Shown piece by piece: positions 1-35,131 of a DNA stretch of 64,000 nucleotides. Source of the DNA: Synechococcus sp. MU1642. Lineage in GTDB: Bacteria; Cyanobacteriota; Cyanobacteriia; PCC-6307; Cyanobiaceae. The position numbers were made by a program, and so were the translations under genes. The notes below the pieces were generated by a model. It did not search any database and was not told where the DNA came from. It saw only the letters and a program-made list of their open reading frames with translations. The stretch covers positions 124,001 through 188,000 of the forward strand of contig NZ_VTKZ01000003.1 of the NCBI RefSeq assembly GCF_020514115.1, in the 5' to 3' direction. Position 1 is the stretch's first letter. Every line of letters starts with the position of its first letter.

Positions 1-593
1 GAGATCTTGAGGGAGATTTTGAAGAGAGGCCTATAGATATTCTTGTTCAAAAAAGAAAGAGTAGTAATTACCTGTTATTTGAATTAGTACCGGCTTTGCG
101 CGCCAAGGGTTTTCGTGTTGAAATTCAAAGCGATTGGGTGGAAGACATAGTTAATTTATTCAATAGTTCTAAGGTGTTTTTGTACGATTCTAGAGATCAT
201 TGGTCTTCAGCTGGAGTAAGCGAGGGGTTCGGCCTTCCTCCTTTAGAGGCAATGGCATGTGGCTGTATAGTTTTCAGTAGTTTAAATCACGCACTTTCAG
301 ACATTCTTACACCTGGGGAAATCGGACATCAAATTGGTTGCGCTTCAATATCTAATGATGTCGATAGAATTTCTGCTGCGCTCCTTAACCCAACTGAATG
401 GAAGCCATCCGTGCAGAAATTAGGTTTTGCATTGCAAGACTTCACCGAAGAATTACACGTAAAACGGTGGAAATATGTTATCAAAAATCTTGAGCAATTT
501 CTCCCCAATCTCAACCAATCTGATTTGATTAGAAGGCATTCTCGGTATCGCATTATTACCAGTAAATTGTTTAGCAAGTTTTTATATGTATAG
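1..593 (+). CDS. Glycosyltransferase, family 1/4 type, C-terminal part (5' end outside window)
   Basis: The reading frame is open from base 3 with no stop upstream, so the gene starts before the window; the TTG at 96 is only an internal codon. About 197 C-terminal residues are visible. The GT4 signature EGFGLPPLEAMACG (positions about 217-258) carries the E-x7-E pattern that binds the nucleotide-sugar donor in GT-B enzymes. The product probably transfers a sugar to a cell-surface glycan at the cytoplasmic face of the membrane; donor and acceptor cannot be read from the sequence. The gene is AT-rich, unlike the GC-rich genes after 5190, and is followed by other polysaccharide genes, which fits an exchanged surface-glycan cluster. 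Family certain, substrate unknown. Confidence 0.85.
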   Translation, partial: DLEGDFEERPIDILVQKRKSSNYLLFELVPALRAKGFRVEIQSDWVEDIVNLFNSSKVFLYDSRDHWSSAGVSEGFGLPPLEAMACGCIVFSSLNHALSDILTPGEIGHQIGCASISNDVDRISAALLNPTEWKPSVQKLGFALQDFTEELHVKRWKYVIKNLEQFLPNLNQSDLIRRHSRYRIITSKLFSKFLYV

Positions 594-925
594 GTAAGTT
601 TTTTGATTCTTGCTTTAGATAATTCTTGCTCGTCTTTTCAAGTATATTTCGACAGAATATTGCTTAAGCTCTTTCGAATCGGGTTTTTCTGTTAATACCT
701 ACTATTTATGCTTACCTCGGAAAAATTTTTACGATATTTAAGGCCACGCGTGTATTTCAGGTTGAATTGGTTTCGAACTAACTTAATAGATTATCTAGAG
801 GTGGTTTTTATCAGGCCTCTAGAGGTGAATATAGCTGAGCTAGTGGTCAATCAATTGAGTGGCTGTCTCCACTAGTCCGAAATTTGAGCTTAGGCATTTA
901 AGTTGGACTTTATTAGCTGCTTAAT
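594..925. other. AT-rich intergenic region with a 10-bp direct repeat
   Basis: This 332-bp stretch shows no convincing gene. It is very AT-rich. The decamer TCTAGAGGTG occurs at 794-803 and again at 818-827, 24 bp apart, and the second copy overlaps the perfect palindrome CCTCTAGAGG at 816-825. This lies about 100 bp upstream of the ABC transporter gene, so it may be an operator or just a chance repeat. No clear promoter hexamers can be assigned with confidence. Confidence 0.4.
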
Positions 926-2758
926 GTGCAAAATCTTTTTGCAAGCAAGACAGTAGTCGGATTGAGGCAACTTATTAATTACATTGATTCAAATGTCTTG
1001 TTTAGACTTTGGTTTTTGCTGCCGGTCTCGATATTATCTGGATTTCTTGATTTTGCTGCAGTTGCAGTGATTGGAAGGCTAACCGGCAGCCTTGTTGGGA
1101 GTGATCTTGCAAATATTCTTCCTGGCATTAAAGTTTTCGGAGCTAGTATATATGAACAGTCTTTGTGGTTAATAGCAATCTTTATAATAGTCAATTGGCT
1201 TCAGTCAGTTGTCCGTCTAACGCTGCGTTTAATGCAAGAAAATCTCGCTGGTGAGTTATGGCTTGATTTATCTGGACGTATCTATAATCAGATTTTAGCG
1301 CAGCCATACGAAAGTCATCTTTCTGGGAATGTCACATCTCTAGCTTCTGATTTACTTTCTAATCTAGAGGCGCTACTTAGAGATATACTTACTCCCTCAT
1401 TGAGAGCAGCAAGCTGTTTAATTAGCATTGTCATGTTAGTAACTGGAATATTGTATGTAGGTGGAGGTGCGTCTTTCGTTTTAATAGTATCGATGCTTTT
1501 GATGTATGTTGCATTATCATATTTAATAACCCCTACGCTGCGTGTTGCGTCAAAGCTTAAAATTATCGCCAGGGAAAGATATACAAAAAGCTTTTTTGAA
1601 TCTCTTGGTTCGATTGCTGATCTTAAGCTTGGCTTGAATGAGCAATATTTTATTAGTCAATACATAGATGCGACACAAACTTATAAAAAGTCAGTTGTTA
1701 ATGCGATTGTATTTCCGGAAATTCCAAGGTTGTTTATTGAACCTTTGGGTATTTCTGCTATATTTTTGGTGGGTGTGTTGCCACAAGTCCTTTCAGGACA
1801 GCAAGAGCGAATTATTGAAGTACTTCCATTTTTGTCAGTATTAGCTGTTGGTGCTTTAAGACTGGCAAAACCCCTTCAAGATCTTTTCGCTTCTGTTTCA
1901 ATACTGAGGGGTGGACTTCCAGAAATAAATAATATCATATCTCTCGTCGATAAAACAAATACATTTAGACAATTCGATATTCGAAAAGATACTGTCTGTG
2001 CTGAAAGTATCTTCCCCCTGCGATCAATTCGTCTTGTAGACGTTCATTACACGTACCCTGGGTCATCAAAACCTGTACTGAATGGGATCAATATTGACAT
2101 CCCTGTAGGCTCTAGAATTGCGTTTGTAGGTCCTTCTGGTAGCGGAAAAACTACTGCGGCCAATATTTTGCTTTCTTTGTTGCGTCCTCAGAAAGGCACT
2201 TTGTCTTTAGATGGAATCCCTCTTTTAGATAATGAAATTCCAGCATGGTATAAATGCTGTGCGAAAGTTCCTCAATCGATTCAGTTGTTGTCAGCTTCAG
2301 TAGTGGCTAACGTCGCGTTTGGAGAGATGGTACAACAAATTGATGAAGATAAAGTCTGGGAAGCGCTTAGAGCTGCTCAATTAGACGAAATTGTGTCTGA
2401 AATGCCATATGGAATATATTCACCTATTGGTGATAATGGTATTGGGCTCTCTGGAGGTCAGCGTCAAAGATTAGCTTTAGCGAGATCCTTTTACAGACAG
2501 GCCAAAGTATTGGTTTTGGATGAAGCCACAAGCGCATTGGATAATCAAACAGAGTCTGAAGTTATTCAATCTCTTGAAATAATAGGTCGACGATGTACTA
2601 CATTAGTCATCGCTCATAGATTATCTACAATAATTAAATGTGATCGTATATATGAATTCTCTGATGGCAAGATCATCGCAAGCGGTAACTTTGATCAATT
2701 GCGTGAACTATCTCCTACCTTCCGCAATATGATCGAATTGCAATCTTTTAATGCATAG
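926..2758 (+). CDS. ABC exporter, fused membrane and ATPase domains (MsbA/PglK type)
   Basis: A 610-residue half-transporter with an N-terminal six-helix membrane domain (about residues 20-335) and a C-terminal ATPase domain. Walker A GPSGSGKTT lies near residue 402, the signature LSGGQRQR near 508, Walker B VLVLDEATSALD near 528, and an H-loop histidine in VIAHRLS. Length and order are those of lipid or lipid-linked oligosaccharide flippases of the MsbA/PglK group. Between glycosyltransferase and polymerase-like genes, export of an undecaprenyl-linked glycan is the likely job (inference). The start is a GTG; no ATG is well placed. The 3' end overlaps the next gene by 8 nt, so the two are probably translationally coupled. 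Composition is AT-rich like its neighbours. Confidence 0.88.
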   Translation: MQNLFASKTVVGLRQLINYIDSNVLFRLWFLLPVSILSGFLDFAAVAVIGRLTGSLVGSDLANILPGIKVFGASIYEQSLWLIAIFIIVNWLQSVVRLTLRLMQENLAGELWLDLSGRIYNQILAQPYESHLSGNVTSLASDLLSNLEALLRDILTPSLRAASCLISIVMLVTGILYVGGGASFVLIVSMLLMYVALSYLITPTLRVASKLKIIARERYTKSFFESLGSIADLKLGLNEQYFISQYIDATQTYKKSVVNAIVFPEIPRLFIEPLGISAIFLVGVLPQVLSGQQERIIEVLPFLSVLAVGALRLAKPLQDLFASVSILRGGLPEINNIISLVDKTNTFRQFDIRKDTVCAESIFPLRSIRLVDVHYTYPGSSKPVLNGINIDIPVGSRIAFVGPSGSGKTTAANILLSLLRPQKGTLSLDGIPLLDNEIPAWYKCCAKVPQSIQLLSASVVANVAFGEMVQQIDEDKVWEALRAAQLDEIVSEMPYGIYSPIGDNGIGLSGGQRQRLALARSFYRQAKVLVLDEATSALDNQTESEVIQSLEIIGRRCTTLVIAHRLSTIIKCDRIYEFSDGKIIASGNFDQLRELSPTFRNMIELQSFNA

Positions 2759-4070
2759 TCTTTCCCATCTTTCTTGTTATATGAAATTGTCGAGAAAAAA
2801 TATGGCTAATGCTATTTCCATTCTTTCCAAGTATTTGCCGCCTTTGTATTTGGCTGCGATTTTGTTTGGCCAGGTATTTTTGTCTTCGATTGCCAATATC
2901 TTGAATGTTGAAAATAGAGCTGTAATGCTTATATTGAGATTTTTGATTATGGTATTGAGCTATGGATATATTCTCTCTCATTTTCGACGCCGGAAGGCTT
3001 ATTATCTTCGGAGCCCGTGGATTGTTTGTCTCGTAACTTTTTGGATTATCTATTCATTTAGGCTTTTCTTTGATCAATATGTTTCTGGAGTTGCACTTGC
3101 CTTGCCTGCCTGGGAACTTTTTGCTTGGAGCTTAGGTAGCTCTCTGCCAATTGCTATTTGCTCCTTTTTATTTGCGGCAAAGAATCGACTTTTGTCTATA
3201 TTGTTTGGCCAAGCAAAGCATGGTGTATTCTTACTTGGGTTCTCAATTGTCTGCTTTCTAGTTAATCCTGGGACCATTCAAGGAGCCTTTTACTTAGAGC
3301 ACTTGAACGCTATTACATGTGCAAATGCAGGCTGCGCTTTATTTTTACTTTGCCTTGGAAATATTTTATTACCTAAATCTTCTTGCGATAATCTTCCTCC
3401 ACCTCTATTTATCGAATGGGCTGGGATGGCAGTTGGATTATTTATAGTCGTATATAGTGCGACTAGGGGCGTACTTATTTCAACTTTTTTGATAACGGTT
3501 GCGTCTATTTTCTTTTTTCGCCAAAGCCTTCAAATTTTAGAATCATTTCAAAGAAAAAACTTTGTATTGTTGGTTCCTGTGTTTTTTGGTGTCATATTTG
3601 TGGCAACTCATTCGCCTCTTCTCTTAGAGAAGCTGTTCACGTCAAGAGCTCCTGAAAGTATTCTGACTCGATTGGAATTTTGGAGAGTTTCGGCTGAGCA
3701 ATTTACAATCAATCCATTGCTGGGTACTGGATTTGGCTTACAAGAGTTGCTTGGGAGTCTTGAAATTGAAAAGGGAATTTACTACCCTCACAATTACTTG
3801 CTTGAATCTCTAGCTGTTGGCGGCATAGTCATGACCCTTCCTTTGATATATTGTACACTTTTTCCGTTAGTTAATTTTCATAAAAGAGCTAAATCTGACG
3901 CTTCTGTTTTTCCGTTATGGCTTTTAGGAGTGCAAGCTTTAGTCTATTCCATGCATAACGGTCACTTGGGTGATTTTCCTTTTTTCTGGATGATTTTTGG
4001 TTGTATGGCGGGAACGAAGTATCGACTTAATAATAGTGTTAACTCTGAATTATCCAACGCAAATGATTAG
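2751..4070 (+). CDS. O-antigen ligase/polymerase-like membrane protein (Wzy/WaaL family)
   Basis: A 439-residue protein made almost entirely of hydrophobic segments, about 10-12 membrane helices. The segment TRGVLIST and the later NPLLGTGFG followed by YYPHNYLLESLAVGG match the conserved periplasmic-loop region of the O-antigen ligase (Wzy_C/WaaL) family, where polymerases and ligases carry functional Arg, His and Asn residues. It would polymerise or ligate glycan units on the periplasmic face. Start ATG 2751 lies inside the end of the ABC exporter gene, which supports joint expression. Its 3' end overlaps the convergent GT2 gene by 32 nt. Ligase and polymerase activities cannot be told apart by sequence. 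Confidence 0.8.
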   Translation: MHSLSHLSCYMKLSRKNMANAISILSKYLPPLYLAAILFGQVFLSSIANILNVENRAVMLILRFLIMVLSYGYILSHFRRRKAYYLRSPWIVCLVTFWIIYSFRLFFDQYVSGVALALPAWELFAWSLGSSLPIAICSFLFAAKNRLLSILFGQAKHGVFLLGFSIVCFLVNPGTIQGAFYLEHLNAITCANAGCALFLLCLGNILLPKSSCDNLPPPLFIEWAGMAVGLFIVVYSATRGVLISTFLITVASIFFFRQSLQILESFQRKNFVLLVPVFFGVIFVATHSPLLLEKLFTSRAPESILTRLEFWRVSAEQFTINPLLGTGFGLQELLGSLEIEKGIYYPHNYLLESLAVGGIVMTLPLIYCTLFPLVNFHKRAKSDASVFPLWLLGVQALVYSMHNGHLGDFPFFWMIFGCMAGTKYRLNNSVNSELSNAND

Positions 4071-5049
4071 GCAGTCTGTACGTTAAATTTATAATTCCTG
4101 ATCTGCCGAGCATAGTCGATATGCAAAGTAACAGGTTATAGGGCTTCGGGCTTTTAAAGTATCTAGCGATAGGCTGAAGAAGATTGATTAAATATATTTT
4201 TGTTCCCAATTGATTTTTTAAAATAACTTCAAATCTTCCCATTCCATATTTCAGGCTTTTAATTGGTGAGCCCTGCAGTGAGTGATGAGCAATTGCCAAA
4301 TCTTTTAATTTGATAATTCTGGCTTCTTGCTTGAGGAGCCTAATCAAAAAATCTGTTTCTTCATTGGACGCCCATGGCGTATTAGCGCCTGGTCCAATAT
4401 TTTCATCAAACACATATGAAAGTGTTTTAAGTATAGATTTTCTAGTGAATATGTTTGAGGTCTCAGCCTTGGCCTTGAAAAGGTCTAATATAGAGTTCAC
4501 TAGTGAATAGTGTATTTTTCCTTTTTTTAGGCCGTTGTGAATTTCTGATGGCTCAATTTTTGATGCTAATATGACGTCAACTTCAGGGTGGCTCTGGAAT
4601 AACTTTATTAATTCTTCTATCAAGATAGAGGGGTACAGGCAGTCATCATCTGGAAAGGCAATTAGTGAGGATTTAGCCTCGCTGGCCCCATAATTTCTTG
4701 ATTTTGAAGCACCCTTGAAATTAACTCTTCTGTGCTTGATGGAAAGCTTCGCTTGCCATTCATTAATTAAGTCTTTTAAAATTTCTTTTTCGTTTTGGTC
4801 TACAATTATTATCTCGGCAGGCTTTATGCTTTGTGCATCAACTGATTCCAGAAAGTCGTTGACTTCATTTACTCTTCCGTATGTGCAGAGAACCAGGGAA
4901 AGGTCGGCGATCAATGTTTGATTTGCTTGGCTCATCTTTCCGAAGTCTCTCCTTTGAATGATAATCGATTCCAGTCTGATGCAGGACTTGAGTGGATAGT
5001 CAATTTTAGGCTTTGGGGTCTTCGTGACAATGCTTCTTGGTTGTTGCAT
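4039..5049 (-). CDS. Glycosyltransferase family 2
   Basis: A GT-A fold transferase of up to 336 residues. The nucleotide-binding start LSLVLCTYGR begins near residue 49 and the metal-binding FPDDDCLYP lies near 140, as in family 2 enzymes. The first 38 residues precede the fold and look dispensable: an in-frame ATG at 4935 (protein beginning MSQANQ) with AAGGAG about 13 nt upstream is an alternative start giving 298 residues. The gene runs opposite to the upstream glycan genes and overlaps the O-antigen ligase-like gene at the 3' end. It is AT-rich and closes the low-GC block; the next gene is ordinary housekeeping DNA. Substrate unknown. Confidence 0.85.
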   Translation of the reverse strand: MQQPRSIVTKTPKPKIDYPLKSCIRLESIIIQRRDFGKMSQANQTLIADLSLVLCTYGRVNEVNDFLESVDAQSIKPAEIIIVDQNEKEILKDLINEWQAKLSIKHRRVNFKGASKSRNYGASEAKSSLIAFPDDDCLYPSILIEELIKLFQSHPEVDVILASKIEPSEIHNGLKKGKIHYSLVNSILDLFKAKAETSNIFTRKSILKTLSYVFDENIGPGANTPWASNEETDFLIRLLKQEARIIKLKDLAIAHHSLQGSPIKSLKYGMGRFEVILKNQLGTKIYLINLLQPIARYFKSPKPYNLLLCISTMLGRSGIINLTYRLPNHLRWIIQS

Positions 5050-5191
5050 TTTGATGATGCCCTTAAATGAGAAATGGATGCTGTTTTTACGCTTTTATTT
5101 GCTTCATTGCCTTGATTATTGAAAGTGTGTTGCGCTGATGGTTTTGGCCCTCAGCTCATGTTCTATCGAGTGCTTCCTTTAAGATAAAATC

Positions 5192-7576
5192 ATGAGTTTT
5201 TTAGCTGGCCTAAATGACGCCCAGCGCAGGGCGGTGGATCACCACGAAGGTCCTCTGTTGGTGATTGCCGGCGCCGGTAGCGGCAAGACCCGTGCCCTCA
5301 CCCATCGCATTGCCCACCTGATTGGGGAGCACGGTGCAGATCCGGCGCAGATTCTGGCCGTCACCTTCACCAACAAGGCTGCTCGGGAGATGAAGGAGCG
5401 GCTTGAGCTGCTCTTGGCCCAGAAGCTGGCGCAGAGTCAGTACGGCCAACCATGGAGCACCCTGCCGCCGGTGGAGCAGCGTCAGTTGCGTTCGCGCATC
5501 TACCGCGAAATAACCAAAGAACTCTGGATCGGCACCTTCCATGCGTTGTTTGCGCGGATGCTCCGCTACGACATCGACAAATTTCTGGACTCCGAAGGAC
5601 TCACCTGGACCAAGCAGTTTTCGATCTACGACGAAGCTGATGCCAAGAGCCTGGTCAAGGAGATCGTCACCCAGGAACTGCAGCTGGATCCCAAGCGCTT
5701 TGACCCCAAGAAGACCCGTTGGGCGATCAGCAACGCCAAAAACCAGGGTTGGCTGCCCGACCAGCTCGAGGCCAACGCCGAAGGGCAGCGGGGCAAGCTC
5801 ACCGCCGATGTCTACCGGCGTTACCGCATGGCACTGGCGGCAAACAATGCCCTCGACTTTGACGATTTGCTGCTCCTCCCGGTGCAGCTCTTGCAGCAAA
5901 ACGAGCAGGTCCGTAGCTACTGGCACCGTCGTTTCCGTCACGTTCTGGTGGATGAGTATCAGGACACCAACCGCACCCAGTACGACCTGATCAAGCTGCT
6001 GGTGACTGATGGCAAGGAACCGCAGGATTACGACGACTGGGCCGGGCGTTCGGTGTTTGTGGTGGGTGACGCCGACCAGAGCATTTACAGCTTCCGGGCT
6101 GCAGATTTCACGATCCTGATGGGTTTTCAGGACGATTTCGGTGACCAGGCTCCGGATGAGGCCACTCGCACGATGGTGAAGCTGGAGGAGAATTACCGCT
6201 CCACCGCCACGATCCTGGAGGCGGCCAATGCGCTGATTTCCAATAACAGCGAACGGATCGACAAAGTGTTGCGCCCCACGCGTGGTGAGGGGGAATTGAT
6301 CTCTCTCACTCGCTGTGATGACGAAATTGCTGAGGCGGAGGCAGTGGTGCACCGGTTGCGCACGATGGAAGCGGCCAATCCCGAGCTCAGCTGGGGTGAC
6401 ATGGCCGTGCTCTATCGCACCAATGCACAGTCCCGTGCGATCGAGGAATCGCTGGTGCGTTGGGGCATCCCTTACATAGTTGTGGGAGGACTGCGCTTCT
6501 ACGACCGGCGTGAGATCAAAGATCTTCTGGCCTATCTGCGGCTGCTGATCAACCCGGCGGACACCGTCAGTCTGCTGCGGGTGATCAATGTGCCTAAGCG
6601 CGGCATCGGCAAGACCACGATCCAGCGGCTCACCGATGCGGCCAATCAACTGGGCATTCCGCTGTGGGATGTGGCGAGTGACCCTGAAGCGGTGCGTTCC
6701 CTGGGCGGTCGTTCCGCCAAGGGGCTGCTGCAGTTCTGTGATCTGGTTAACGATCTCCAGTCGCGCAGCCGTGAGGTGTCTCCCTCGGAACTGATTCAGC
6801 AGGTAATGGAGAAAAGCGGTTATGTCAGCGAGTTGATCGCTGATGGCACCGATGAGGCCGAGGAACGACGTCGCAACCTGCAGGAATTAGTGAACGCCGC
6901 TCTTCAATACCAGGAGGAGAACGAGGAGGGTGATCTTGAGGGATTCCTGGCCAGTGCAGCACTGGCCAGTGATGCCGACAGTAAGGACACCGCCGCAGAC
7001 CGCGTCACCTTGATGACGCTGCACAGCAGCAAGGGACTCGAGTTCCCTGTGGTCTGCCTGGTGGGTCTGGAGCAGGGTCTTTTCCCTAGTTATCGCTCCC
7101 TCGATGACCCGGCATCTCTGGAGGAGGAGCGACGTCTCTGTTACGTGGGCATAACCCGGGCGAAAGAGCGTTTGTTCCTCTCCCACGCCAGTGAGCGACG
7201 TCTCTGGGGTGGGATGCGCGAGGCTGCGGTTCCTTCCGTGTTTCTTTCGGAGTTGCCGGAGGCCCTGGTGCAGGGGGACATTCCCCAGAGCGGTGGAGCG
7301 GCGCTACGGCGCGAGCGCCGCCTCGAGAGGCTCACCCGTATAGATCGGGATAAACCGTCATCGGCCCCTGCGAATGCAGTGCGGCGACGTCAGGCAGGAC
7401 CAGCTCCCGGTCGGAGCTGGCAGGTGGGTGATCAGGTGATGCATGCCAGCTTTGGTGTTGGAGAGATCACCCATACCTTCGGAAGCGGTGAGAAGGTTTC
7501 AATCGCGGTCAAGTTCGCAGGTATGGGCCCCAAGATCCTGGATCCGCGCCTTGCCCCAATCGAGCCTGTTGGTTGA
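5192..7576 (+). CDS. pcrA: ATP-dependent DNA helicase PcrA/UvrD
   Basis: A 794-residue superfamily 1A helicase that unwinds DNA 3'-5' in repair and in clearing replication blocks. The Q-motif region LNDAQRRAV is followed by Walker A AGAGSGKTRA (residues 26-35), motif Ia VTFTNKAAREM, motif II VLVDEYQDTNRTQ (near 250), motif III GDADQSIYSFR, motif IV ENYRST, motif V TLMTLHSSKGLEFP and motif VI CYVGITRAKERLF. The C-terminal tail after residue 745 (VMHASFGVGEI) is the RNA-polymerase-interacting module typical of PcrA. The ATG start lies just after an A/T-rich stretch (TAAGATAAAATC). This is the first GC-rich gene after the glycan block. Confidence 0.96.
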   Translation: MSFLAGLNDAQRRAVDHHEGPLLVIAGAGSGKTRALTHRIAHLIGEHGADPAQILAVTFTNKAAREMKERLELLLAQKLAQSQYGQPWSTLPPVEQRQLRSRIYREITKELWIGTFHALFARMLRYDIDKFLDSEGLTWTKQFSIYDEADAKSLVKEIVTQELQLDPKRFDPKKTRWAISNAKNQGWLPDQLEANAEGQRGKLTADVYRRYRMALAANNALDFDDLLLLPVQLLQQNEQVRSYWHRRFRHVLVDEYQDTNRTQYDLIKLLVTDGKEPQDYDDWAGRSVFVVGDADQSIYSFRAADFTILMGFQDDFGDQAPDEATRTMVKLEENYRSTATILEAANALISNNSERIDKVLRPTRGEGELISLTRCDDEIAEAEAVVHRLRTMEAANPELSWGDMAVLYRTNAQSRAIEESLVRWGIPYIVVGGLRFYDRREIKDLLAYLRLLINPADTVSLLRVINVPKRGIGKTTIQRLTDAANQLGIPLWDVASDPEAVRSLGGRSAKGLLQFCDLVNDLQSRSREVSPSELIQQVMEKSGYVSELIADGTDEAEERRRNLQELVNAALQYQEENEEGDLEGFLASAALASDADSKDTAADRVTLMTLHSSKGLEFPVVCLVGLEQGLFPSYRSLDDPASLEEERRLCYVGITRAKERLFLSHASERRLWGGMREAAVPSVFLSELPEALVQGDIPQSGGAALRRERRLERLTRIDRDKPSSAPANAVRRRQAGPAPGRSWQVGDQVMHASFGVGEITHTFGSGEKVSIAVKFAGMGPKILDPRLAPIEPVG

Positions 7577-29395: not shown

Positions 29396-29956
29396 ATGGC
29401 ACCCCTGCCGTCACCGGAACCGTTCGAGCTGCTGGACACCGTCGAGGTGGTGGATGCTCGCAAGCTCCGTTTCGAGCGCAACCGGATCAAATTGCCGATG
29501 GGGGTGGAGGCCACCTTCGGGATGATCCGCCACCCCGGCGCCTCCCTGGCGGTGCCGATCACCGAAGATGGCCAGGTGGTGCTGCTGCGGCAGTATCGCT
29601 TCGCGGTGCAGGCCCGTCTGCTGGAGTTTCCTGCGGGCACCCTGGAGGAGGGGGAAGATCCTCTGGAATCGATGCAGCGCGAGCTGGGGGAAGAGGCCGG
29701 TTACAGCGCAGCGAAGTGGGATGTGTTGGGGCCGATGCTTCCATGCCCGGGCTATTCCGATGAGGTGATCCACTGCTTCCTGGCTCGGCAGCTCACCCCA
29801 CTGGAGAACCCGCCAGCCGGCGATGACGATGAAGACCTTGAGGTGGTGCTGATGAGCCCAGCGCAGCTGGATGCAGCACTGGCATCGGGCGATGAATGGC
29901 TGGATGGCAAAAGCGTCACCGCCTGGTTCCGTGCCAAACAGCTTCTCGACCTCTGA
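29396..29956 (+). CDS. Nudix hydrolase (ADP-ribose pyrophosphatase-like)
   Basis: A 186-residue Nudix enzyme. The box GTLEEGEDPLESMQRELGEE followed by AGY is complete (G-x5-E-x7-REUxEExGU), so it should be catalytically competent and hydrolyse a nucleoside diphosphate linked to another group. The upstream LLRQYRFAVQARLLEFPAG matches ADP-ribose/ADP-sugar pyrophosphatases. Its stop shares a base with the photolyase start, so the two are co-translated; a shared role in cleaning up nucleotide or light damage is only a guess. Confidence 0.88.
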   Translation: MAPLPSPEPFELLDTVEVVDARKLRFERNRIKLPMGVEATFGMIRHPGASLAVPITEDGQVVLLRQYRFAVQARLLEFPAGTLEEGEDPLESMQRELGEEAGYSAAKWDVLGPMLPCPGYSDEVIHCFLARQLTPLENPPAGDDDEDLEVVLMSPAQLDAALASGDEWLDGKSVTAWFRAKQLLDL

Positions 29957-31389
29957 TGACCAGCTCTCGCGTTCTGTTCTGGCACCGCCGCGATCTGCGC
30001 TTGGCGGACAACCTCGGATTGGTGGCTGCTGCGCAGATCAGTCCTGCGGTGACGGGCGTTTATGTGCTCGACCCCCAGGTGATCAACCCGCCGAAGCATT
30101 TGCCGCCGATGGCGCCGTCCCGCCTGTGGTTTCTGATCGAGAGCCTGGTGGAATTGCAGCAGCGCTGGCGTGAGGCCGGCAGTCGCCTGGTGGTGCTGGA
30201 GGGCGACCCGGTGGCGGTGTTGCCGCAGCTGGCGCAGCAGATCGGTGCTGAGGCTGTGGTGTGGAACCGCGATGTGGAGCCCTATGCCCGTGAGCGGGAC
30301 CGCCAGGTGGCCAAAACCCTGCAGGCTGAGGGCTGCAAGGTGGTGGTGGATTGGGATCAGCTGCTCATCGCTCCGGAACTGCTCAAGACCGGCGCTGGCG
30401 ATCCCTACCGCGTGTATGGCCCGTTCCTGCGCAACTGGCGCGGCCAGGTGCTGGATCAGAAGCCAGCCACCGTTGCTGCGCCCTCTGGCTTGCTGGATCT
30501 GCCGCCGGATCTGGTGTCGTCTGGTGATCCCCTGCCCGCCCTGCGGGACAGCCATGGGTTCCAAGGCACCGAGAGCTGCCCCTGTCGACCCGGAGAAGCC
30601 GCGGCCCTGGCACAACTCACCAGCTTCTGTGATGGTCCGCTGCTTGGCTACGAACCCGACCGCAATTTCCCTGGCACCGCCGGCACCTCGTATCTGAGTG
30701 CTGCCTTGAGCGTCGGTACGCTCAGCCCTCGCCAGGCCTGGTGTGCCGCCCAGGACTCTCGCGACCAAGCCCGCAGTGAGGAGCAGCTCCATGCCATCTC
30801 TGTATGGGAGCAGGAGCTGGGCTGGCGCGAGTTCTACCAGCAGGCGCTGTTTCATTTCCCTGAGTTGGCCGACGGCCCCTATCGCGAGCAGTGGCGGCGT
30901 TTTCCCTGGGAGAACAACGAGGACTGGTTCGACTTCTGGAAGGACGGTCAGACCGGCATTCCGATCATCGATGCAGCGATGCGGCAGCTCAATCAGACCG
31001 GCTGGATGCACAACCGCTGCCGCATGATCGTCGCCTCCTATCTGGTTAAAGACCTGATCTGCGACTGGCGCTGGGGCGAGCGCGCCTTCATGGAACTGGA
31101 GGTGGATGGCGACCTTGCTGCCAACAACGGGGGTTGGCAGTGGAGTGCCAGCAGCGGCATGGACCCCAAGCCTCTTCGCATCTTCAACCCCGCCACCCAA
31201 GCCTCCAAATTCGATTCAGCTGGCGACTACATCCGCCGGTGGGTGCCGGAGTTGCGTCATGTGAACACCAAGGATCTGCTCAGCGGTGAGATCGGTGCGC
31301 TGGAACGGCGCGACTATCCCGAACCGCTGGTTAATCACAAGAAGCAGCAGGCACGTTTTAAGGCGCTTTACGCCACCATTCGGTCTTGA
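29956..31389 (+). CDS. phr: Deoxyribodipyrimidine photolyase (CPD class I)
   Basis: A 477-residue photolyase that repairs UV-induced pyrimidine dimers using blue light and FADH-. The N-terminal antenna-binding alpha/beta domain starts VLFWHRRDLRLADN. The FAD domain contains ELGWREFYQ, TGWMHNRCRM, and DGDLAANNGGWQWSAS, which carries the Asp and Asn contacting the flavin and the Trp pair facing the dimer. ATG 29956 overlaps the Nudix stop; the frame continues upstream without homology. The 3' end overlaps the convergent aminotransferase gene by 22 nt. A second photolyase-like system lies at 33771-35131. Confidence 0.95.
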   Translation: MTSSRVLFWHRRDLRLADNLGLVAAAQISPAVTGVYVLDPQVINPPKHLPPMAPSRLWFLIESLVELQQRWREAGSRLVVLEGDPVAVLPQLAQQIGAEAVVWNRDVEPYARERDRQVAKTLQAEGCKVVVDWDQLLIAPELLKTGAGDPYRVYGPFLRNWRGQVLDQKPATVAAPSGLLDLPPDLVSSGDPLPALRDSHGFQGTESCPCRPGEAAALAQLTSFCDGPLLGYEPDRNFPGTAGTSYLSAALSVGTLSPRQAWCAAQDSRDQARSEEQLHAISVWEQELGWREFYQQALFHFPELADGPYREQWRRFPWENNEDWFDFWKDGQTGIPIIDAAMRQLNQTGWMHNRCRMIVASYLVKDLICDWRWGERAFMELEVDGDLAANNGGWQWSASSGMDPKPLRIFNPATQASKFDSAGDYIRRWVPELRHVNTKDLLSGEIGALERRDYPEPLVNHKKQQARFKALYATIRS

Positions 31390-33270: not shown

Positions 33271-33789
33271 ATGCGGCGCCTGCGTCTGCTTTGGGGAGTT
33301 GGCCTGCTGCTCGGGGCTTGCGCTGCGCCGAAGGAGCCGCCCAGCTGGCGGTTGTTCCCCCTGCAGCGCTACTCGCCCCATGACGGGGTAGCCGTGGTCA
33401 ACCAGCCCGATGGCTACGGGTTGCACATCTACCTGGAGACAGACACCAGCTTCCCGGGGGTGTGTCGTCCTCGCTGGTTGCCGGATCCAGCACGCCTGTT
33501 CAACGGCAATGGATCCACACCGTTCAGTTCCGGTCTGGCGGCCCGTCAGGAGTTTTTCGATGCCGTGGCCCGGCGTGATGTGCGTAGCCTGTTGAAAAAG
33601 GAGCTCAAAGCTCTGTGCCAGGACCGCGCTCCGAACGACCGCTGGCAATGGACTGAGCCGCCCCGGAACGACAATCAGGTGGTGCCTCTGCAGCTTCCCT
33701 CCCTCGAAGAGAAAGACCTGCTCACCAATCCGGTGGACGAATTGAAGCGGGCCCTACAGCTGCTAGGAGATCAACGGGCTGCCGAGTAG
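33271..33789 (+). CDS. Putative lipoprotein of unknown function
   Basis: A 172-residue protein beginning with a short basic segment, a hydrophobic stretch and the lipobox LLGAC (Cys17), so it is probably lipid-anchored outside the cytoplasmic membrane. The mature part has no domain I recognise; it is soluble, with conserved-looking aromatic segments YGLHIYLETDTSF and VCRPRWLPDPA. Its start is 57 bp from the divergent thioredoxin-like gene and its end overlaps the convergent photolyase N-domain gene by 19 nt. Confidence 0.75.
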   Translation: MRRLRLLWGVGLLLGACAAPKEPPSWRLFPLQRYSPHDGVAVVNQPDGYGLHIYLETDTSFPGVCRPRWLPDPARLFNGNGSTPFSSGLAARQEFFDAVARRDVRSLLKKELKALCQDRAPNDRWQWTEPPRNDNQVVPLQLPSLEEKDLLTNPVDELKRALQLLGDQRAAE

Positions 33790-34211
33790 CCCTCCCACAC
33801 CACTGCTTCGGCTTCGCGCCAATAGCGGCTGAACCGCCCCAGCCGAGGTGGCCGTGGCAGCTCCACGAACGGTTCGGGATCCAGCAGCTCAAGCGGCAGT
33901 TCCGCGTCGATGGCCTCGCCGATCTGCTCCAGGCGTGGATCCACTGCGCTGCTGCTCACCACACCATCGGCCTGATGGCGACGGGCAAAGGCCAGCACCT
34001 CAGCGGCCACATCCCCCTTTCGCAGGGTGAGGGGAAGGTCGAGGGCGTTTTCGTAGAGGAAGCCGAGTCGTTTGCGGCTGATTCGTGCGTCTTGGATCCA
34101 GCAGGTGTCGAACACGAACACTGCTGGTGCCTCCGGCCAGGCCTGCAGCGCTGGGTTGTTGGCACCAAGGGCCTCCTCGTGAATCCAGAGGATGGGGCGT
34201 TGGAATGTCAT
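33771..34211 (-). CDS. Stand-alone photolyase N-terminal (antenna) domain-like protein
   Basis: A 146-residue protein that resembles only the alpha/beta antenna domain of photolyases: ILWIHEEALGANNPALQA parallels the usual start, AVFVFDTCWI is the following strand, RLGFLYENALDL parallels the helix that in photolyases reads R-x-F-L-x-E-S-L, and GVVSSSAVDPR matches the later strand. There is no FAD domain. It lies 14 bp downstream of a gene that encodes only the photolyase FAD domain, so the pair looks like one photolyase split in two with the order reversed. The role as an antenna or partner subunit is inference. Confidence 0.7.
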   Translation of the reverse strand: MTFQRPILWIHEEALGANNPALQAWPEAPAVFVFDTCWIQDARISRKRLGFLYENALDLPLTLRKGDVAAEVLAFARRHQADGVVSSSAVDPRLEQIGEAIDAELPLELLDPEPFVELPRPPRLGRFSRYWREAEAVVWEGYSAAR

Positions 34212-34225
34212 GAGGAATCTGCTGC

Positions 34226-35131
34226 TTATCGCTTGGGACGGGCCAGGGCGGCACTGGCGCCTCCGCTGCTCCGGCGTTGGCGTTGCTGATTTCGGTTATT
34301 ACCGGTCTCCCGAATGGCTGGCATTGGAGCGAACAGCCGGTTCTCCAGTTGGTCATAGCTGCCTTCCAATGGGCAGCTGTTCGCACTGGGGCAGCTGTCG
34401 CAGAAGTGACCGTCGCTGTAGCGCTCCAGGTTGCCGCGGTTGAAGAAGTAGGGCTTGTGGCTGAAGGTGCTGGCAACCCACTGCCAGCTCAGATGGTTGC
34501 TGGCCGGATCGCCATCCAGCAGGTGCTCAAGAAACCAGTCGGCTCCAGCCTTCCAGTGGACCCGTCGCCAATGCACAAGCCAGGCTGCCATCCACATGCG
34601 GGCGTGGTTGTGCAGCCAGCCGGTGCTCACCAGTTGATCGCGGAAGCCATCCATGCAGGCCAGCCCCGTGGTCCCTGCGCGAACATCGGCCGGCAGCTCT
34701 CGGGAGTAGGCACCAGCGTCATGCCCCGTTTTGAACGGTTCCTGATCGTGATGGATGCCATCCCCCAGATCGAGCCACATCCGTTGCCAGAAGTCGCGCC
34801 AACCGAGTTCGTTGATTAGTTTTCCGCCTTCATCTCGGTTGCGAATCCGGGCAAAGACGGCATCGCGCACCTCCGGGAGGCTCAGCACGCCGTGGCGGAT
34901 GTAGGGCGACAGCCCGGTGACAGCACCATTGAGGTGATTACGGCTTTTGGCGTAGCTCCTTGCGTCAATGCGCCGCAGCTTGTTTTCGGCTGCCTCACGC
35001 CCACCGCGGATCGGGCTGAGCTCCCCTTCCGCTTCAGGGAACTCTTGCGCCAACAGGGTGTTTAAGGCATCGCGGGACGCGAATTGCCGCGGCAGGTCGC
35101 CGTTGATCGGGGGTGACGCAGCGCTGGGCAC
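34226..35131 (-). CDS. Photolyase/cryptochrome FAD-binding domain protein without antenna domain
   Basis: A 301-residue protein corresponding to the helical FAD-binding half of photolyases. Matching segments are SPYIRHGVLSLPEV, ELGWRDFWQRMWLD, TGWLHNHARMWMAAWLVH and DGDPASNHLSWQWVASTFS, the last holding the flavin-contacting Asp and Asn and the Trp pair. After it comes the cysteine group CDSCPSANSC (C-x2-C-x5-C) near residue 246, with another Cys in LACMDGF; these could bind metal or an iron-sulfur cluster, which I infer only. GTG 35131 is the apparent start. The next gene downstream supplies the missing N-terminal domain. Repair versus signalling function is undetermined. Confidence 0.85.
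   Translation of the reverse strand: MPSAASPPINGDLPRQFASRDALNTLLAQEFPEAEGELSPIRGGREAAENKLRRIDARSYAKSRNHLNGAVTGLSPYIRHGVLSLPEVRDAVFARIRNRDEGGKLINELGWRDFWQRMWLDLGDGIHHDQEPFKTGHDAGAYSRELPADVRAGTTGLACMDGFRDQLVSTGWLHNHARMWMAAWLVHWRRVHWKAGADWFLEHLLDGDPASNHLSWQWVASTFSHKPYFFNRGNLERYSDGHFCDSCPSANSCPLEGSYDQLENRLFAPMPAIRETGNNRNQQRQRRSSGGASAALARPKR

Follow-up and report, generated by a model that had tools for sequence, protein, structure and literature searches.

Photolyases are textbook single-chain enzymes. In the 64,000-nucleotide stretch of the Synechococcus sp. MU1642 genome analysed here (the window), two neighbouring genes on the same strand divide the two domains of such an enzyme between them, and the gene for the catalytic half comes first (Table 1). 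Are their products two subunits of one photolyase, are they joined into one chain during translation, or does each have a role of its own? The original prediction for this locus had proposed a split photolyase with reversed domain order, whose halves might form a heterodimer.

As an object, the pair is already known. Haney et al. 2022 reported it from all marine Synechococcus under the names phr4/phr5, and a fused form, phr6, from two Cyanobium strains (PMC9426592). They already pointed out the reversed order, the Fe-S cysteines and the possibility of a heterodimer, and did not decide between two subunits and a product of +1 frameshifting (PMC9426592). In Synechococcus WH7803 the transcripts of phr4 and phr5 go up together after UV, an RS9916 phr4 insertion mutant is UV-C sensitive, and the cloned genes give E. 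coli a UV-C protection that is not light-dependent (PMC9426592). The genes in the window are the same, in the same order and in the same organism group. New in the present analysis are the exclusion of a frameshift, the co-occurrence of the two genes even where they are unlinked, the fused and split forms in Deinococcus, and the predicted antenna fold of Phr5.

Table 1. Features of the phr4/phr5 locus, in positions of the window.
Feature	Position	Strand	Details
phr3 (full-length class I photolyase, by sequence of the 8-HDF type)	29896..31389	(+)	NCBIfam
phr5 (detached photolyase alpha/beta antenna domain, predicted)	33771..34211	(-)	146 aa, ATG start
phr4-phr5 intergenic junction	34212..34225	(-)	14 nt
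phr4 (FAD-domain-only photolyase subunit, SPL type)	34226..35131	(-)	301 aa, GTG start
phr4 end: last 10 codons and stop	34226..34258	(-)	Ala-Ser-Ala-Ala-Leu-Ala-Arg-Pro-Lys-Arg

The larger gene encodes a photolyase/cryptochrome catalytic domain and nothing else. Its product matched Pfam FAD_binding_7 (PF03441) over the cut-off (E 3.3e-22) and aligned with solved photolyases solely in their C-terminal FAD part (residues 204-402 in the case of 1tez). Coordinates, domain match and alignment thus bear out the FAD-only gene that had been predicted, as well as the 14 bp between its stop and the start of the small gene on the same strand. The open reading frame begins at the FAD half, as in the SPLs, which are said to be FAD-only photolyases without the alpha/beta domain and from which the family has been proposed to descend (Xu et al. 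2021, as relayed in PMC9649867 and PMC9178010). In these accounts the SPLs, among them SePhrC of S. elongatus, resemble Phr4 both in the FAD-domain-only chain and in the Fe-S cysteines. The four cysteines of Phr4 (C159, C244, C247 and C253) are each shared by at least 120 of the 122 homologues, and they would be expected to bind an Fe-S cluster. A Phr4 orthologue is also present in a genome of the S. elongatus group (G045) whose class I photolyase is close to PDB 1owl.

The smaller gene gave a weaker signal. The match of Phr5 to PF00875 (DNA_photolyase) lay below the Pfam cut-off (E 0.003), and 10 of 12 diverse homologues matched the same family at E <= 0.1. By hhalign, Phr5 was linked to the N-domain of the class I photolyase of its own genome (92%). 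Since a PDB sequence search with Phr5 returned zero matches, structure comparison was needed. The best PDB matches of the AlphaFold2 model of Phr5 (pLDDT 81.6) were photolyase N-domains, with a Foldseek E of 1.8e-5 to 2j07 and a VIA-align Z of 12.2 to 3zxs (RsCryB) and 4dja (AfPhrB). The model thus predicts the Rossmann-like alpha/beta fold of a PF00875-type antenna domain, and the antenna-like domain first proposed for the small gene passed the fold comparison on which it had been made to depend. The protein ends in a near-invariant RFSRYW motif.

Both genes are under purifying selection, with a dN/dS of 0.06-0.11 for Phr4 and 0.07-0.17 for Phr5. A pseudogene or an assembly split was ruled out by the low dN/dS and by conservation, and a phage origin of the pair was ruled out, as phages gave no Phr5 match. 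No sigma-70 promoter-like site was found.

The pair is conserved across cyanobacteria, and its existence is not due to chance. Both proteins were searched in one even set of 292 cyanobacterial genomes. There were 59 genomes with Phr4 and 58 with Phr5; 58 had both, and in none of the 292 did Phr5 occur without Phr4. In the sole genome with an apparent Phr4 only (G082), the protein is NewPHL-like, fused and without Fe-S cysteines. The Fisher p value is 6e-61 by genome and 2e-24 by genus, both figures ignoring shared ancestry. Presence and absence of the two genes also vary jointly inside families f1, f28, f29 and f35.

Co-occurrence does not depend on linkage. In 18 of the 58 pair-bearing genomes phr4 and phr5 lie far apart or on different contigs; in one single-contig genome (G104) the distance is 2.4 Mb. 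On the Phr4 tree there are at least three independent separations of the pair, and about seven by parsimony. Outside this sample, 26 named genomes were chosen by a Phr5 with no Phr4 within 4 kb, and every one of them had exactly one Phr4 elsewhere, in some cases just a few kb past the flank. This is strong evidence for an obligate pairing throughout the sampled cyanobacteria. The original prediction stood or fell with a conserved pairing, and the survey found it kept far beyond adjacency.

Fused forms join the same two domains. A genome of the same family (L039) has one 582-aa open reading frame with the FAD domain followed by the antenna domain, and Deinococcus plasmids encode fused proteins of 456 and 472 aa, so that fusion arose at least twice. 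Deinococcus sp. QL22 has a split pair with a 4-nt ATGA overlap. The range of the pair thus goes beyond the marine set of Haney et al., across cyanobacteria and to Deinococcus, its spread outside cyanobacteria resting on plasmid records only. The best 80 of 376 relatives from a contig scan were all cyanobacteria, mostly Nostocales. Reversed order occurs in these fused forms and in photolyases of the NewPHL type as well. For MU1642 it is correct as a gene order; as a domain order in the strict sense it is not, there being two separate proteins.

How the two products come about was decided at the junction. Haney et al. raised the possibility of a programmed ribosomal frameshift, by which phr4 and phr5 would yield a single protein of reversed order, and the fused phr6 of Cyanobium and the precise spacing that they noted would fit this (PMC9426592), as would an unusual conservation of synonymous sites at the end of phr4. 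Over its last 10 codons, 1.8% of comparisons among 12 close relatives show a synonymous difference, vs 22% gene-wide; this is the stretch of phr4 with the least synonymous variation, and the suppression weakens in more distant relatives. In our set, however, neither spacing nor frame is constant. Within the genus, the distance from phr4 stop to phr5 start ranges from -4 to +22 nt, the relative frames 0, +1 and +2 are all found among relatives, and no single slip serves all junctions; other lineages overlap the genes as ATGA or TGATG. Moreover, in-frame stops often stand a few codons upstream of the phr5 ATG, and this ATG itself is conserved. Upstream of it, most close relatives have a Shine-Dalgarno-like AGGAG (AGCAG in MU1642). 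A conserved programmed frameshift, which would need a fixed relative frame, is excluded by the variable frame and spacing, by the in-frame stops and by the unlinked genes, and we regard a joined product as highly improbable. On the question posed in 2022, there is strong evidence in favour of two subunits. The conserved end of phr4 is possibly an RNA or regulatory element.

Two separate products could still act apart, Phr4 being an autonomous, antenna-less photolyase and Phr5 a relic or the partner of some other protein. Such an enzyme would agree with the account of SPLs as a class without N-terminal domain (Xu et al. 2021, cited in PMC9649867), but it is improbable given that Phr5 co-occurs perfectly with Phr4, has been fused to it in two lineages and is itself held by purifying selection. 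That phr4 and phr5 encode two subunits of one photolyase, translated independently, is very likely.

Whether the small subunit harvests light is a further matter. In the alignment, R48 of Phr5 stands opposite Arg51 of S. elongatus PhrA (SePhrA), which binds 8-HDF, and all 79 of 79 Phr5 sequences have arginine at this position. The residues at the ceiling and floor positions of the pocket are apolar. The acidic residues aligned with D101 and E103 of SePhrA, which we take to have a role in 8-HDF binding, are mostly not retained. The roles of Arg51 and of the ceiling and floor residues are those described for SePhrA (PMC9178010). CofH (FO synthase) was found in 44 of 45 non-marine pair hosts vs 63 of 234 genomes without the pair. 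From these sequence data 8-HDF is a plausible antenna of Phr5 outside the marine group. A strong CofH match was found in 0 of 13 marine-type genomes, MU1642 included, and in the MU1642 genome neither CofG nor CofH, by which a host would make FO/8-HDF, had a match over the cut-off. The Phr5 of marine strains may therefore carry no deazaflavin; in MU1642 it may bind another chromophore, a scavenged one, or none. A different role for the same second subunit would be that of a chromophore-less structural cap, comparable to the C-terminal domain of NewPHLs, that closes off or stabilises the Phr4 FAD site; light harvesting would then never have been, or would no longer be, its function. In profile comparison, some NewPHL-like proteins did have a C-terminal domain linked to Phr5 (90%), and both the scarcity of the acidic residues and the persistence of Phr5 in marine strains without CofH would suit a cap. 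The invariant arginine, the apolar pocket positions and the frequency of CofH in non-marine hosts do not, and we consider a cap possible but rather doubtful.

In the two-subunit enzyme that we favour, Phr4 would be the catalytic, DNA-binding subunit of SPL type, carrying FAD and, by its cysteines, an Fe-S cluster. Phr5 would be the alpha/beta domain that other photolyases have N-terminally, made as a separate protein, which in many genomes would start at its own ATG just past, or overlapping, the phr4 stop and in others would come from a distant locus. Docked on Phr4, it would restore the full photolyase fold and, in those cases where it binds a chromophore, pass light energy to the FAD. As to the lesion that such an enzyme would repair, Haney et al. 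predict (6-4) repair for the pair (PMC9426592) rather than the CPD repair associated with the SPL class. A pseudo-fusion, in which Phr4-Phr5 of a Nostocales genome was read through the intergenic stops, was modelled with paired and unpaired rows; the best model had a pTM of 0.84 and a mean pLDDT of 79.5 (66 to 79.5 over five models) and is consistent with a defined docking of Phr5 on Phr4. Foldseek with the pseudo-fusion cannot test this docking because the domain order is permuted. Of the readings first offered for the pair, the heterodimer is thus best supported, by predicted fold and conserved pairing.

The complete photolyase gene first noticed within 3 kb of the pair is phr3, which lies on the opposite strand, 2.4 kb from phr5. 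It matched the NCBIfam model for 8-HDF-type class I photolyases below the strict cut-off of that model and is a separate full-length enzyme outside the pair. MU1642 thus has an 8-HDF-type class I phr3 in a genome in which CofG and CofH had no match over the cut-off. As none of the 13 sampled marine-type genomes has CofH, the same doubt extends to the antenna of marine Phr3.

Known photolyases share parts of this design. The class I 8-HDF photolyase SePhrA (1owl) and the prokaryotic (6-4) photolyase PhrB (4dja) have the same two folds, and PhrB, like Phr4, has four cysteines for an Fe-S cluster; unlike the pair, both are single chains with the antenna domain N-terminal. NewPHL, credited to Emmerich et al. 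2020, reportedly has the FAD domain first and the C-terminal domain second. It resembles the pair in this order and in that some of its C-terminal domains are related to Phr5. It differs in being a single chain with a different C-terminal domain and in that the examples examined have no Fe-S cysteines, whereas the pair consists of two open reading frames with these cysteines present. No link to Phr5 was obtained by hhalign for the C-terminal domains of alphaproteobacterial NewPHL. Single-chain NewPHL-like proteins with a C-terminal domain related to Phr5 are encoded at L187 and L190 (Persicobacter plasmids) and at L092 (G082). At L187 another open reading frame of the photolyase family, of full length, comes immediately after this gene.

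The SPLs differ from the pair on one point. They are described without an alpha/beta domain, whereas for Phr4 this domain was found in a separate gene or fused behind it in every genome tested; an antenna-domain gene was present in 58 of 58 Phr4-bearing cyanobacterial genomes. In the open-licence literature, no paper was found that joins the SPL and phr4/phr5 strands. The SPL class is probably not antenna-less, and its antenna domain would be supplied in trans. We further lean towards the view that the whole class is an obligate two-subunit enzyme with its antenna in trans, across cyanobacteria and in some Deinococcus, and that in marine strains, which would lack 8-HDF synthesis, Phr5 persists with another chromophore or in a non-antenna role. 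If true, this would be an obligate heterodimeric photolyase, whose catalytic core and antenna can be mixed and tested separately, and one ground for regarding SPLs as the antenna-less ancestor would fall away. Because marine strains keep Phr5 without 8-HDF synthesis, roles of the antenna domain besides light harvesting would become directly testable.

Some loci depart from the common pattern. In the most divergent cyanobacterial pair (G274, locus L058, 2465-3722), Phr4 is without all four Fe-S cysteines, either lost or never had, and Phr5 still adjoins it. An incomplete metagenome-assembled genome (G025, locus L013) has a frame break in phr4, which overlaps phr5 by about 100 nt; either the frame really changes there or the assembly may be in error. 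Besides a complete copy elsewhere in its genome, G326 has at L063 a further Phr4-Phr5 copy, which is partial, contains a run of N and has a short Phr5. In the window itself, the first 4-6 kb (within positions 1-6000) have a GC content of 0.38-0.47 vs about 0.62 in the rest, which suggests a foreign or special region.
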